Of a stretch of DNA of 64,000 nucleotides, positions 9,563 to 50,783 are shown piece after piece. The stretch is taken from the NCBI GenBank assembly GCA_029232285.1, contig JAOXFI010000005.1, forward strand, positions 230,349 through 294,348. The letters are read 5' to 3'. Numbering within the stretch: the stretch's first letter is position 1; each line of letters begins with the position of its first letter. This DNA comes from Agmasoma carcini (nom. nud.). Lineage: Eukaryota > Microsporidia > Thelohaniidae. The notes under the pieces are model-generated. The model saw nothing but the letters and a program-made list of their open reading frames with translations. It had not been told where the DNA came from and did no database searches. A program made the translations under genes and the position numbers.

Positions 9563-10564
9563 ATGGAAAGAGAATTCTTGGATACAGCCATAGAAGGAAC
9601 AACAGTAATTGATTGTCTTAAGGTTGTATCTCCAAATGGTCAAGTTGTAGTCATATCTGATGAAAATCAATACGGAACAACCTACAATAGAGAAATCGCA
9701 CTTAGAAAATCAAAAATAATTCAAAACCTAAAACTTTTGACTAAATACCACGAACCTATGTCAGTCGAAGCCCTCCCATTTCTTATAAGAACAAATAGTC
9801 CAATACTAAAATTTATAAGTAAAAACTATTTCGCTAGCGAACTGAAATTCAAGGACATCAATGATGTCTTTTATATTGATAAAAATGATACAATTTTCAA
9901 ATATCCAAATAATAAAACTGACATAGCAACCAACAAAAAAATCACAAAAATTAACAAATTTTATTTACATAAATCAATAAAAGAAAAAAATTTCAATATT
10001 TTTAAAGAAAACTGTTCAGATGATGACAGTAAATTGATAAAAACAGCATATGAAGCAATAAACTTCGATAAATACTGCCAAACATTTGAATTACCACCTT
10101 ATGTGTATCCCTTGTACGGTATGAGTGAAATATCAGAGAACTTAAGCATGGCAAATGCACTGAAAGGTGTGATATACTTCTTGAACGACAACCTTAAGTA
10201 TGATATTAATGATGACTACGAAGGTTATAACTTTAAATTTGAAAGTGATTTGGGTGTTTTGTACACTAAAAAATTTATAAGTCAATCATTGTTAAAGGTT
10301 AAGCATTACGTTAGAGTCATAAAAACAATGAAACAGAAGTTTAATGGTTGTTTTAAGGCTTATGTAGAGGATGATGAGGTCATGACAGCAATAGGTCTTG
10401 ATAGCTCAGTATGTGTTACGAATGGATATAGTCAAATTATATATTTCATAAAGAAAGAATCATCAGTGACTTATTCTAACTTAGCTAAGTTCAAAATATA
10501 TCCTAATGATATTATTTGTGATATAATGTTTGAGACTTTATCAGATTTGAGTCAATTTGAGTAA
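9563..10564 (+). CDS. GDI1: Rab GDP-dissociation inhibitor / Rab escort family
   Basis: 333 aa, against about 450 for fungal GDI. The N-terminus (about 8-50) follows the FAD-like GDI fold: D-T-A-I-E-G-T-T-V-I-D-C-L, then SPNGQVVVISDENQYG, equivalent to the family's G-K-x-V-L-H-x-D-R-N-x-Y-Y-G. A second block, PPYVYPLYGMSEISENL near residues 180-196, corresponds to SPYLYPLYGLGELPQ of GDI. GDI extracts prenylated GDP-bound Rab GTPases from membranes and recycles them; the related escort protein presents new Rabs to the prenyltransferase. The glycine motif is degenerate, which is normal because GDI does not bind FAD. GDI and REP cannot be told apart with certainty here. Confidence 0.8.
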   Translation: MEREFLDTAIEGTTVIDCLKVVSPNGQVVVISDENQYGTTYNREIALRKSKIIQNLKLLTKYHEPMSVEALPFLIRTNSPILKFISKNYFASELKFKDINDVFYIDKNDTIFKYPNNKTDIATNKKITKINKFYLHKSIKEKNFNIFKENCSDDDSKLIKTAYEAINFDKYCQTFELPPYVYPLYGMSEISENLSMANALKGVIYFLNDNLKYDINDDYEGYNFKFESDLGVLYTKKFISQSLLKVKHYVRVIKTMKQKFNGCFKAYVEDDEVMTAIGLDSSVCVTNGYSQIIYFIKKESSVTYSNLAKFKIYPNDIICDIMFETLSDLSQFE

Positions 10565-30345: not shown

Positions 30346-30465
30346 TAATATTATGACATATAACTATTGATAATTGGTGCTATTTGATTTATATTATCTA
30401 AAAAATTATCAGATCACAGATTAAAAGAATGTAAATTGACTTATATGTATAATTTAGTTGTAAAT

Positions 30466-30537
30466 GCTTAAGTAGCGCAATGGTAGCGCACCTGCCTTCT
30501 AAGCAGGGGGTTGCGGGTTCGAGTCCCGTCTTGGGTG
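30466..30537 (+). tRNA. tRNA-Arg (anticodon UCU), copy 1
   Basis: The anticodon stem CCTGC/GCAGG encloses CTTCTAA, giving TCT. The T arm is GCGGGTTCGAGTCCCGT and the D arm GTAGCGCAATGGTAGCGC. The acceptor starts GCTTAAG and pairs with CTTGGGT through several G-U pairs. It differs from copy 2 only at acceptor position 3 (T for C). Confidence 0.93.
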
Positions 30538-30632
30538 TTTAATTTTTATAATTTTAAGATTGATAAATTTTTGCTAATGTTAGATTTTTCTTTATAAACT
30601 TTTAATTCTAAACTTCGTTTCTAATTTCTTAT

Positions 30633-30704
30633 GCCTAAGTAGCGCAATGGTAGCGCACCTGCCTTCTAAGCAGGGGGTTGCGGGTTCGAGTCCCGTCTTG
30701 GGTG
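30633..30704 (+). tRNA. tRNA-Arg (anticodon UCU), copy 2
   Basis: Identical to copy 1 except for C at acceptor position 3 (GCCTAAG), which gives one more Watson-Crick pair. Spacing between the copies is 95 bp and the spacers are not alike, so only the tRNA itself stayed conserved after duplication. Confidence 0.95.
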
Positions 30705-31323
30705 TTTAATATTTTTTAAAATTTACTTTGTTTACTTTTTTTATATATGAATTTGTTTATTGTTATTATTATACATGAAAGAACCTTTTTCAAGGTACGA
30801 TACATATAAAATATGTTTCTATGGTTTATTGAACAGTTTTTTCTTTTCCTGTTAAACTATGTTATAAGGGTAATTTTTATTATTTATAGTTTTATTTTGA
30901 TTAAAAATGTTTATGATATTTATTAATCAGAGTACACCTTTTTAGTTATTAGGTTAGATTTTATATAAATATGATTCAATATTATAGAGATAAGATTAAA
31001 GGTGATGTAACAATGGAATTTAATTCTAACAATAATTCTGTGATTTCTTGAAAGTATGTTTGTTTATATTGTTCTATTCTTTAACTATTTATGTATTAAC
31101 AAATTAATACAATATTTGTATTTGTTGTATTTATAAATATTTTGTTTGTTTATACAAACAATCTTTTAATATTTTTGATTTCTTTTAATAAATAAAGAAA
31201 TAGCTAATAAGGTTGATTTAACTGTTATTACTATTTCAGATATACAATTACTTAGCGAAAAATGAAATTCAAGAGCTGGAGAGAATAGTATGACTAGAAT
31301 CACAAATAAATATAAATTAGAAT
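30705..31323. other. AT-rich spacer, no gene seen
   Basis: No supported gene. Short frames are not preceded by a start signal. Confidence 0.5.
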
Positions 31324-36949: not shown

Positions 36950-39010
36950 TTATTCTTCATTCATATACTTTTCTGCTAGTTTTATAACATCATTTGGGAA
37001 TCTCACCTTCCTTGCAACATTAATTCCAAAGCTCATATCACAAACACCATCCCTGATTTTATATGTTAAAACATCACCATCTACCGCCATAATCTTATTC
37101 AATGTTCTTTCACATCCTAATTCACTAAAATGAGTAGCAAATACTGAACGAATATTCTTTTCTAATAAAAATTCTTTCACTGCAGATACTAAACTAAATC
37201 CATCTATAGCTGAAGTACCCCTACCAAGCTCATCTATTAAAACAAGTGATTCAGATGTTGAACACCTCAATATTTTGTTCAATTCCATCATCTCAACCAT
37301 AAACGTAGAAAGCTGTCGGCTAGAACAATCTTTAGCACCAATTCTCATCAAAATCTTATCAAACACTGGAAGAACAGCTAACTCACATGGAACAAAAGAA
37401 CCTATTTGCGCAAAAAGGGAAACCATTGCAAGCGTTTTTATAAATGTACTCTTGCCACCCATATTTGGTCCTGTTATGATCATTACATTTTTATTAAAAG
37501 AAACATCATTAACTATACAATCCTTATTCTCCAGGAGTGGATGAAACATACCTTTCACAGTATAATCAACTTTTGAGAATGAAGGCCTATTATAAATACC
37601 AACCTTTTGAGAAAAACAGTTAAAAATGTCCATCATAGCTATAATGTAGTTAAATATCTCCAAAGAACTCATAAACTTAAGACAAAAATCTCTAATGCTA
37701 TTGATTATCTCACGTTCTGCCGTTTCAACCCTTTCTTCGATATCTTCTAAATCTTTTCTATAAAGAGACATGTTTCTAGAGAGGAAAGTTACGCTATTTT
37801 TCAAAAGGTTAGTAACAACAAATTTCTTTTTGTTAAATTCACCATCAGAACTGAAGTAAGATTTTTTTTCATTATACTCAGTTTTTGTAATCTTAAAACC
37901 TTTGTTATGATATTTAGCACTATTGATCAATTTTTTAATATCATTAAATTCACTTTCAACCTTTTCAAATATCGAAATCTTTTCATCGTTCAATCGACTT
38001 AATTCTTGGTTAAGATCCACTTTGATCCTTCCCGTTTTAAAATCAATAGAATCTTCGATTTTATCCTGTAAAGGAGAGCATATCTTAAAAAAGCTCGTTA
38101 AAGGTTCTATAAACACTTCTTTAACTATTTCACTCTCATCAGGATATTCTTTTATCCGCTCAATTATTATTTTAACTCTTTCGATCGCTTTATAAACTTT
38201 TAGAAGTTCTGGTATGTTTATTTTTCTTATCTTCATTCTATGAACAATCTTTTTTATATCTGGAAAGTTTAAAAGTGAAATGTTATAATTTCTAAATTGT
38301 TCAACAATGTCTAATCTTTTCTCAATTTCATTTTTACATTTTAACGGTGCTCTAATCCACTGATTTAACAGTCTTTTACCCTGTGGTGTGCTTATGTTAA
38401 ATTGAGGTAAATCAAAGTCATCGATATTAACTGTACAATAGCTATCACATGTGAATTGTACATGCTCAAACTTCATATTCATATGCTTCTCAATTAAAGA
38501 CACGTTAGCATCTTTCTGAATTTTATATGAAGAACAGCCCCAGTTATTAAAATAACTTTCTAAGGTTGGACTTGAATAAAGAATCTCAACACAGTTGTAC
38601 ATGCTAATCAGAGAATAAGTGATAGAGAGTAGATCATCATCTAAATAACTACTGAAATTTATATTTTTTTCACATAAATAGCTAAATTTAATATAATTGT
38701 CTTGTATTTCCACTGAACACAAAGATGCCAATATATTATCGTCAATACAAATATCTGTGAAGTCATGAAAATCATAAGGAAAGCCTTTCTTTGATAATTT
38801 AAAGTTACAATATTCAGCAACTGGTATTTTCTCAGTGATTAACAATTTTTTAATAATCGAGTCAATGCAGTCTAATTTAACATCATTTCTTCCTTTGTAC
38901 TCTTTAGGCAGATACTTTACATCATCAGAGTAAACATGGAATGTTCCATCCTCTATGAAATAGTTGAAAACGTCTTTTGGAAGTTTTTTGTAAAAAGATT
39001 GAAAATCCAT
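36950..39010 (-). CDS. MSH2: DNA mismatch repair ATPase MSH2, shortened
   Basis: 686 aa against about 930-960 in human and yeast. The lever/connector part includes QFNISTPQGKRLLNQWIRAP, the MutS core block. The ATPase domain has Walker A TGPNMGGKST (about 513-522), STFMVEMMELNKIL, Walker B VLIDELGRGTSAIDGFS (from about 590) and the signature FATHFSEL. GVCDMSFGINVA near the end is typical of MSH2. It would pair with MSH6 to recognise mismatches, acting with PMS1 (51296). The N-terminal region is about 150 residues shorter than usual, and the roughly 70 residues after the last ATPase helix are missing. ATAAAAAAATTTCC precedes the ATG. Confidence 0.88.
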   Translation of the reverse strand: MDFQSFYKKLPKDVFNYFIEDGTFHVYSDDVKYLPKEYKGRNDVKLDCIDSIIKKLLITEKIPVAEYCNFKLSKKGFPYDFHDFTDICIDDNILASLCSVEIQDNYIKFSYLCEKNINFSSYLDDDLLSITYSLISMYNCVEILYSSPTLESYFNNWGCSSYKIQKDANVSLIEKHMNMKFEHVQFTCDSYCTVNIDDFDLPQFNISTPQGKRLLNQWIRAPLKCKNEIEKRLDIVEQFRNYNISLLNFPDIKKIVHRMKIRKINIPELLKVYKAIERVKIIIERIKEYPDESEIVKEVFIEPLTSFFKICSPLQDKIEDSIDFKTGRIKVDLNQELSRLNDEKISIFEKVESEFNDIKKLINSAKYHNKGFKITKTEYNEKKSYFSSDGEFNKKKFVVTNLLKNSVTFLSRNMSLYRKDLEDIEERVETAEREIINSIRDFCLKFMSSLEIFNYIIAMMDIFNCFSQKVGIYNRPSFSKVDYTVKGMFHPLLENKDCIVNDVSFNKNVMIITGPNMGGKSTFIKTLAMVSLFAQIGSFVPCELAVLPVFDKILMRIGAKDCSSRQLSTFMVEMMELNKILRCSTSESLVLIDELGRGTSAIDGFSLVSAVKEFLLEKNIRSVFATHFSELGCERTLNKIMAVDGDVLTYKIRDGVCDMSFGINVARKVRFPNDVIKLAEKYMNEE

Positions 39011-49688: not shown

Positions 49689-50783
49689 ATGAGTAGAGAA
49701 GAAATCGAGTCATTTATTTTAGATGGTGAATTTACGTATTATGAGGAGCCTAATATGTCAAAAAGCATAGATACAATGGTAAAGATAGGATTGAAGCAAA
49801 AAAATTCAATATTTGCAATCTCTGGCCCACCAGGATCTGCTAAAAAGACATTAGCCAAGAAAATAGCCAGTCAACTAAATGGAAGAAAAATATTTATAAG
49901 TGCTACTGAGATTAACAGTTTAGATGAGTTTATCAAAATAAAAAGAATGACACAAATCGTTAAACTAACAGAAGAAGTAAAAGTCGCAGAAGGTGAAGTT
50001 GTAAGCTTGGGGCCAAATGAAATTACACTAAAAACAGTTGATATGGACTCAGTCTTTACTATTGGGAATAAAATTGCTAGAGGATTGGAAGAGGAGAGAG
50101 TATGTGCTGGTGATATCGTAAAAATATACAAAGAAACCGGTTTTGTTATTAAATTGGGTATGTCAGCAACATCAAAAAGTGAAAATACAGATTTGGAGGT
50201 TTTACCACCGGTTGAAGGAGAAATAATTAAAAAGGAGATGTCAACAACGGATATAACATTTGACTCTTTAGATATTTTAAATTATAACAATGATGGAGAG
50301 CGTTTGCTATTTACTGATCAAATTGTACCAGAATTTATAAAAACTGGTGTGAATGAAGAAATTAATGAGTGGGTTAGCCAGGGTAAGGCCTCCGTTGAAG
50401 GTGGTGTTATCATTTTATACAATTCTCATTTATTAAGTGATGAAATACTAAACTATATATCACTAAACAAATTATCTTCATACAATCCAAATATAATTCT
50501 AGTAGGTTCGATGGATGCAGCAAAAACCAAGGCATGTGATTTTATGATACAGACACGCTCTCGTAACAAGACTGAGCTTGAAGGACTATTGAAATCAATT
50601 TTAAAATATGGGAACATGGAAATTGATGTTGAATTATTTGAGGTTGTTTTAGGTATTGCTTTTGATACTTGCCTGAAATATTCCTTGAAGCTGCTGAGGT
50701 GTTCGATGGGTAACGGAAAGTTTTGCTTGAATAGGTTTAAAGTTATTTATTCATATTTTAACAATAAAAGAAATGTTATTTGA
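49689..50783 (+). CDS. RVB2: RVB2/RUVBL2-like AAA+ protein with a ruined ATP site
   Basis: 364 aa against about 470. The inserted OB domain shows RVB2 identity: EGEVVSLGPNEITLKTVDMD, then KIARGLEEERVCAGDIVKIY and ETGFVIKLGMS, matching E-G-E-V-V-E-I...L-K-T-x-x-M. EEINEWVSQGKASVEGGVII precedes Walker B. The catalytic residues are lost. Walker A reads GPPGSAKKTL at 46-55 (normally GPPGTGKTA). Walker B is IILYNSH with Y244-N245 instead of Asp-Glu. Sensor 1 reads GSMDA rather than ATNRG, and the sensor 2 arginine is lysine (LKYSLKL). Rvb1/Rvb2 hexamers build chromatin remodellers, box C/D snoRNPs and TTT complexes. The long conserved frame shows it is a maintained gene, so a structural role is likely. 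Confidence 0.8.
   Translation: MSREEIESFILDGEFTYYEEPNMSKSIDTMVKIGLKQKNSIFAISGPPGSAKKTLAKKIASQLNGRKIFISATEINSLDEFIKIKRMTQIVKLTEEVKVAEGEVVSLGPNEITLKTVDMDSVFTIGNKIARGLEEERVCAGDIVKIYKETGFVIKLGMSATSKSENTDLEVLPPVEGEIIKKEMSTTDITFDSLDILNYNNDGERLLFTDQIVPEFIKTGVNEEINEWVSQGKASVEGGVIILYNSHLLSDEILNYISLNKLSSYNPNIILVGSMDAAKTKACDFMIQTRSRNKTELEGLLKSILKYGNMEIDVELFEVVLGIAFDTCLKYSLKLLRCSMGNGKFCLNRFKVIYSYFNNKRNVI

Follow-up and report, generated by a model that had tools for sequence, protein, structure and literature searches.

Can a subunit of the Rvb1/Rvb2 ring lose the site for adenosine triphosphate (ATP) and still be kept as a protein? The question is raised by a gene for RVB2 (RuvB-like 2) in a 64,000-nucleotide stretch of the genome of the microsporidian Agmasoma carcini (hereafter the window; assembly GCA_029232285.1, contig JAOXFI010000005.1, positions 230,349 to 294,348). 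The window (guanine-cytosine content 27%) is part of contig C30 in an assembly of 4.26 Mb in 69 contigs. Rvb1 and Rvb2 are both regarded as essential and active ATPases. A sequence-only reading had proposed that this RVB2 has lost every ATP-site motif, such that the ring either relies on a single set of active sites or acts only as a scaffold. In this work, we found it reasonably probable that the gene encodes the RVB2 of an Rvb1/Rvb2 ring without ATP hydrolysis, probably in both subunits, and that this ring persists as a static scaffold on which a reduced INO80 C-module is assembled.

The RVB2 gene and its ATP site

The longest open frame at the locus has 366 codons, and the longest in 300 mononucleotide shuffles has 130. 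Its codon score is 0.166 per codon, similar to those of the seven neighbouring known genes on which the codon table was trained (0.150-0.221), while the other frames score -0.054 to 0.127. The proposal that RVB2 is kept as a long open frame agrees with these values, and a shifted frame or a misassembly was rejected based on the intact frame and the neighbour-like codon usage. For its identity, the protein matches Pfam TIP49 (PF06068) with 96.9 bits (cut-off 23.8), its closest relatives in the PDB are RuvB-like 2 proteins (4e-26), and it scores 115.5 bits against an RVB2 profile and 53.3 bits against the competing RVB1 profile. The protein falls short of most canonical rows of the alignment described below by roughly 90 residues, and its predicted structure keeps the full AAA/RuvBL fold.

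The motifs were read from an alignment of 20 rows. The canonical set in this alignment consists of 16 of 25 canonical proteins (P0005, P0020, and P0022-P0028 were left out), and conserved columns were counted only where filled in at least 12 of these 16 rows. Among all 25 canonical relatives (RVB2, RVB1, and uncertain proteins pooled), GxxxxGK[ST], ATNR/ASNR, and the Arg-finger motif are each present in 25, and the Walker B pattern, SLRY, and HSH are each present in 23. In the window protein, the replacement of the Walker B acids by Tyr-Asn was seen in the alignment as had been claimed, and the sensor 1 Asn is also lost (Table 1). The broader claim that all ATP-site motifs are lost went too far for two of them. 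Walker A has Gly-to-Ala and Thr-to-Lys changes but keeps the P-loop lysine (Lys52) and four of its seven conserved columns, and sensor 2 has only a conservative change. Intact motifs that are merely shifted in the reading can be set aside, because [AG]xxxxGK[ST] has zero occurrences anywhere in the protein.

Beyond the motifs first noticed, the Arg-finger loop and the His-Ser-His arm are also gone. All nine conserved columns of the Arg-finger loop are gaps in the window protein and in three relatives (P0001, P0006, and P0007), and the N-terminal HSHIRGLGL arm is missing. The OB-like domain II, which is inserted in the AAA core, is still recognisable as proposed, with 20 of 33 family-conserved columns kept, and was modelled as a beta-rich block with a predicted local distance difference test score of about 90 over residues 90-160. 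Judged from these residues, the window frame is a descendant of RVB2 without a working ATP site, and the loss of hydrolysis is close to certain. The description of this protein as a pseudo-ATPase is well founded, given the lost catalytic residues and the TIP49/RVB2 identity obtained from Pfam, PDB, and profile comparisons.

Table 1. Positions of the RVB2-derived gene, its altered motifs, and the RVB1 candidate (window coordinates unless a contig is named)
Feature	Position	Strand	Remark
RVB2-derived pseudo-ATPase gene	49689..50783	+	single open frame, 364 amino acids
Degenerate Walker A GPPGSAKK, residues 46-53	49824..49847	+	canonical GPPGSGKT
Domain II (OB-like insert), about residues 92-189	49962..50255	+	best-preserved long region
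Walker B Asp-Glu to Tyr244-Asn245	50418..50423	+	alignment
Sensor 1 Asn to Ser274	50508..50510	+	alignment
Junction of deleted Arg-finger loop (PHGIPxDLLDR region)	50537..50538	+	same gap in P0001, P0006, P0007
Sensor 2 Arg to Lys330 (conservative)	50676..50678	+	alignment
RVB1 candidate, 306 amino acids	C22, L002:1093-2013	-	TIP49 match

Relatives and the RVB1 candidate

A search with the window protein and P0001, with scoring limited to the 7999 candidates that had the most words in common, gave at least 24 proteins, and further RVB2s of this kind may exist. These include three short RVB2s of 361-368 amino acids (P0001, P0006, and P0007), which have about 33% identity to the window protein. 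None of the three has GxxxxGK[ST], ATNR/ASNR, the Arg-finger motif, the Walker B pattern, SLRY, or HSH. In a tree of 18 of the 28 P-numbered proteins, for which the tool warned of long branches, these three and the window protein form a clade with support of 99/99. The four sequences are identical at 62 columns, of which 40 have the canonical majority residue, and 10 columns have a residue common to all four but absent from the 16 canonical rows (counted without a null model). Across the four, the kept conserved columns range from 19-21 of 33 in domain II, 3-5 of 7 in Walker A, 8-11 of 27 in the linker to Walker B, and 5-8 of 21 in the C-terminal core to 0-3 of 5 in Walker B, 0-1 of 6 in sensor 1 and its loop, 0-3 of 14 in the N-arm, and 0 of 9 in the Arg-finger loop. 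Because the same losses and the grouping are found in three relatives, the degenerate form looks old and maintained; the motif loss would be ancient and followed by constraint.

A decaying pseudogene or an assembly error could also produce the strong divergence and the loss of many motifs. This explanation is hardly credible for an intact frame of 364 codons with normal codon usage, particularly when the same losses and shared derived residues are found in three other proteins. The relatives also bear on the possibility that only hydrolysis was lost, with adenosine diphosphate or ATP still bound in a structural role by what is left of the P-loop of RVB2. The window protein retains Lys52 and much of its P-loop, P0001 and P0007 have SGKH, and every subunit holds trapped nucleotide in the structures of INO80 and SWR1 (PMC6494491). 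However, the Thr/Ser after the lysine is gone in all four proteins, P0006 has Arg in place of the lysine, the HSH arm is missing from the window protein and the HSH pattern from the three relatives, and the RVB1 candidate has no P-loop, such that we consider this explanation unlikely.

A second intact RVB2 elsewhere in the genome would speak against the loss, but none was found in the whole assembly by the TIP49 profile (nine of nine candidates scored). The four hits are the window gene, one gene on contig C22, and two in a single frame of 800 amino acids that carries two intact AAA domains. Genome-wide decay of AAA proteins was rejected, as P-loops are intact in the three other proteins checked (four P-loops); the Walker B pattern was met in one of these three, namely, the protein of 800 amino acids. 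Separately, the TIP49_C lid domain gave two matches below the cut-off, at C32:16303-16494 (E 0.02) and C23:61073-61204 (E 0.12), in frames of 715 and 770 amino acids.

The C22 gene is the only RVB1 candidate found. All 11 of its PDB matches are RuvB-like 1/RVB1, and the protein scores 31.4 bits against the RVB1 profile and 12.1 bits against the RVB2 profile. Its TIP49 match (43.3 bits) covers residues 52-171 with about 51 residues before it, and its BLAST match to P0023 begins at residue 57 (residue 119 in P0023). The P-loop is absent from the protein sequence, and the single P-loop match in a six-frame scan of C22 (8691, + strand) lies away from the gene. The gene start is only 83 bases from the next gene (L002:2097-2867), which leaves little room for a missing exon. 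No homologue of this protein was found at E <= 0.01 among 1143 candidates. Its C-terminus was not placed convincingly by hhalign with canonical RVB1, and when its C-terminal half was compared with canonical RVB1 proteins P0023, P0026, and P0028, 278, 269, and 99 of 500 shuffles were as good, respectively. The segment 'TLVIDNCGAL' resembles a Walker B with a Glu-to-Asn change by eye and was not counted.

The guanine-cytosine content of C22 is 28%, like that of the window, and a CCT chaperonin control gave matches at eight loci, including one on C22. These two observations argue that C22 is part of this genome and that little is missing from the assembly. One of the CCT loci (C13:68107-69099, - strand) is weak, with 75.6 and 20.4 bits in a frame of 448 amino acids compared with 281-466 bits for the other seven, and possibly represents another ring subunit that is losing its ATP site.

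These results allow the state of the partner to be assessed. RVB2 alone may be dead while an active RVB1 exists that is unassembled or too divergent to detect; the assembly is in 69 contigs, and a search for microsporidian small-subunit ribosomal RNA, in which 5 of 64 candidates were scored, was negative, such that pieces may be missing. The limited set of TIP49 hits, the eight CCT loci, and the RVB1-like profile score of the C22 protein all argue against this explanation, and we regard it as very improbable. Inspection of the RVB1 ATP site, as had been suggested, led to a single candidate without a P-loop. On the sequences at hand, inactivity is not confined to the window protein, since this candidate also lacks the P-loop and the assembly yielded no intact copy. 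Between the two outcomes offered by the sequence-only reading, a ring with one active set does not agree with the RVB1 candidate, and the scaffold fits the presence of Ino80, Arp5, and Ies6 genes.

INO80 subunits and the proposed scaffold

There are eight SNF2-type frames in this genome. The frame L009 is Ino80, with a DBINO domain and a PDB Ino80 match at 1e-173. It has 108 residues between the two aligned motor blocks, compared with 241 in solved Ino80, and its Pfam-domain spacing is 148, compared with 10-20 in L007, L010, L011, and L013, 75 in L008, and 80 in L012, in which this stretch contains a RING. This spacer lies outside the aligned stretches, and its likeness to the solved insert is one of position only. 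For the other frames, L007 has a SLIDE domain (ISWI-like), L008 has chromodomains (CHD-like), L012 is Rad5-like, and L015 is XPB. No SWR1 ATPase was recognised among the eight frames, with PDB comparison covering L009 and L012 only. The actin family has two genes (three of three candidates scored), namely, actin and Arp5 (L017:1441-3063), the latter being the only actin-related protein found besides actin. Arp4, Arp6, and Arp8 are not among these two genes, and the INO80 A-module Arps (Arp4 and Arp8) seem absent. The only YL1_C gene is Ies6, and no second YL1_C protein (SWR1) was found. In INO80, Ino80, Arp5, and Ies6 surround the Rvb ring (PMC9733932). As identified by sequence comparison, this genome retains the genes for these ring-surrounding C-module subunits; no other clients of Rvb were recognised.

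Several observations in other systems are relevant to how such a ring could persist. In canonical complexes, the insert of Ino80 passes through the Rvb ring, and Swr1 exchange is independent of ring hydrolysis (PMC7445562). The entry of Arp5 into INO80 needs the Rvb proteins (PMC4428354). In R2TP, PIH1D1 on domain II opens the N-terminal gate and leads to nucleotide exchange (PMC6494491). For this genome, we infer that the two Rvb proteins still form a ring that carries the Ino80 spacer and Arp5-Ies6. The loss of the nucleotide-exchange duties (R2TP-type chaperoning with the exchange factor Pih1) would have removed the need for hydrolysis. INO80 would then have been left as the main Rvb client in this lineage; the gate, hydrolysis, and finally the ATP site would have drifted away, with domain II and the ring body held in place by Ino80, Arp5, and Ies6. 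The stricter version, in which both subunits of the INO80 ring have lost nucleotide binding as well as hydrolysis, is conceivable and somewhat doubtful.

Alternatively, there may be no ring, and the two proteins may be OB-domain adaptors for RNA, DNA, or protein that are unrelated to INO80. Domain II is the best-kept long region of RVB2 and the sole recognisable one of RVB1, and the short stretch ahead of the TIP49 match in RVB1, together with the offset in its match to P0023, may be explained in this way. However, the full AAA fold predicted for RVB2 and the presence of other INO80 C-module genes make such freed domains quite unlikely.

Several points weigh against the static scaffold. An Ino80 insertion stimulates the Rvb ATPase (PMC6494491), such that INO80 assembly in other organisms may draw on hydrolysis. 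Nucleotide binding by the window RVB2 may persist, given Lys52 and the retained Walker A columns. The C22 RVB1 is recognisable only at about residues 52-171 (domain II and linkers), and any Walker B or sensors in it would be putative. The fork that places the four degenerate proteins within RVB2 has support of 93/94, which is below the mark of the tool, and very long branches lead to the C22 protein (9.29) and to the window RVB2 (2.7). Ies2 (PAPA-1) gave no match, but the search gave none in any control either. PIH1 (PF08190) also gave no match in a search without a eukaryotic positive control, and its absence is weak evidence. Finally, the ring, the expression of its genes, and its binding to Ino80 are presumed.

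Other observations were made in this genome. In the window, a Rab GDI/escort-like protein (9563-10564) has a Pfam match only at residues 171-254 (34.7 bits) and looks strongly divergent. A MutS homologue of 686 amino acids (36950-39010) has Pfam matches only to MutS domains III and V at E <= 0.001, and its N-terminal mismatch-binding domain was undetected at this threshold. Two adjoining tRNA-Arg(TCT) genes lie at 30465-30705 on the + strand. Elsewhere in the assembly, the uL3 protein (L022) scores highest against PDB entries 7qep (Encephalitozoon cuniculi, 413.9 bits) and 6rm3 (Vairimorpha necatrix, 408.1 bits), followed by a row with 367.7 bits, in agreement with a probable microsporidian; two other microsporidian entries, 6zu5 and 7qca, have 360.1 and 343.6 bits, less than some plant rows. 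In the whole assembly, phosphoglycerate kinase was not found by a search that was positive in 14 of 14 controls, which suggests that glycolysis has been lost. The Enterocytozoon group lacks a functional glycolytic pathway, and each lineage retains different parts (PMC6497299); the missing kinase hints at this group without being proof of it.

Comparison with known systems

The role of the Rvb ATPase within INO80, as opposed to R2TP, is unsettled. If the stricter version of the scaffold reading is correct, neither the architecture of the ring nor the recruitment of Arp5-Ies6 nor the function of INO80 would require the Rvb ATP site after the loss of R2TP-type clients. A lineage that has INO80 core genes and has discarded the Rvb active sites would amount to a separation of functions carried out by nature, with the prediction that the ring can act as a scaffold without hydrolysis.

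For Microsporidia, none of the open-licence papers searched pairs 'microsporidia' with 'RVB2' or 'TIP49', and we met no description of degenerate Rvb proteins in the portions available of the open-licence literature on microsporidian INO80 and RuvB-like proteins. An INO80 ATPase has been reported in Encephalitozoon (PMC10158259). A RuvB-like 1 gene of Nosema ceranae was amplified by primer (PMC4320070), and hand translation of this primer gives PKGCGKTA, an intact P-loop, which suggests that the loss of the Rvb ATP site is not phylum-wide.

Compared with RVB2 (reptin), the window protein has homology over most of its length, the domain II insert, and the predicted full RuvBL fold, but has a degenerate Walker A and lacks the Walker B acids, the sensor 1 Asn, the Arg-finger loop, and the N-arm histidines. 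The C22 protein is similar to RVB1 (RuvB-like 1, pontin) over domain II and the linkers, but has only about 51 residues before that region and no P-loop. The canonical INO80 C-module contains Ino80, Rvb1, Rvb2, Arp5, Ies6, and Ies2. This genome likewise encodes an Ino80 that has DBINO and a spacer, together with Arp5, Ies6, and two Rvb-derived proteins, but the Rvb proteins are catalytically degenerate, the Ino80 spacer is about half the length, Ies2 was undetected, and no Arp4 or Arp8 was found. Among pseudoenzymes, the fungal Dis3-like pseudonucleases (PMC8097288) similarly lost catalytic residues while the protein was kept, whereas here both subunits of a hetero-ring are apparently affected.
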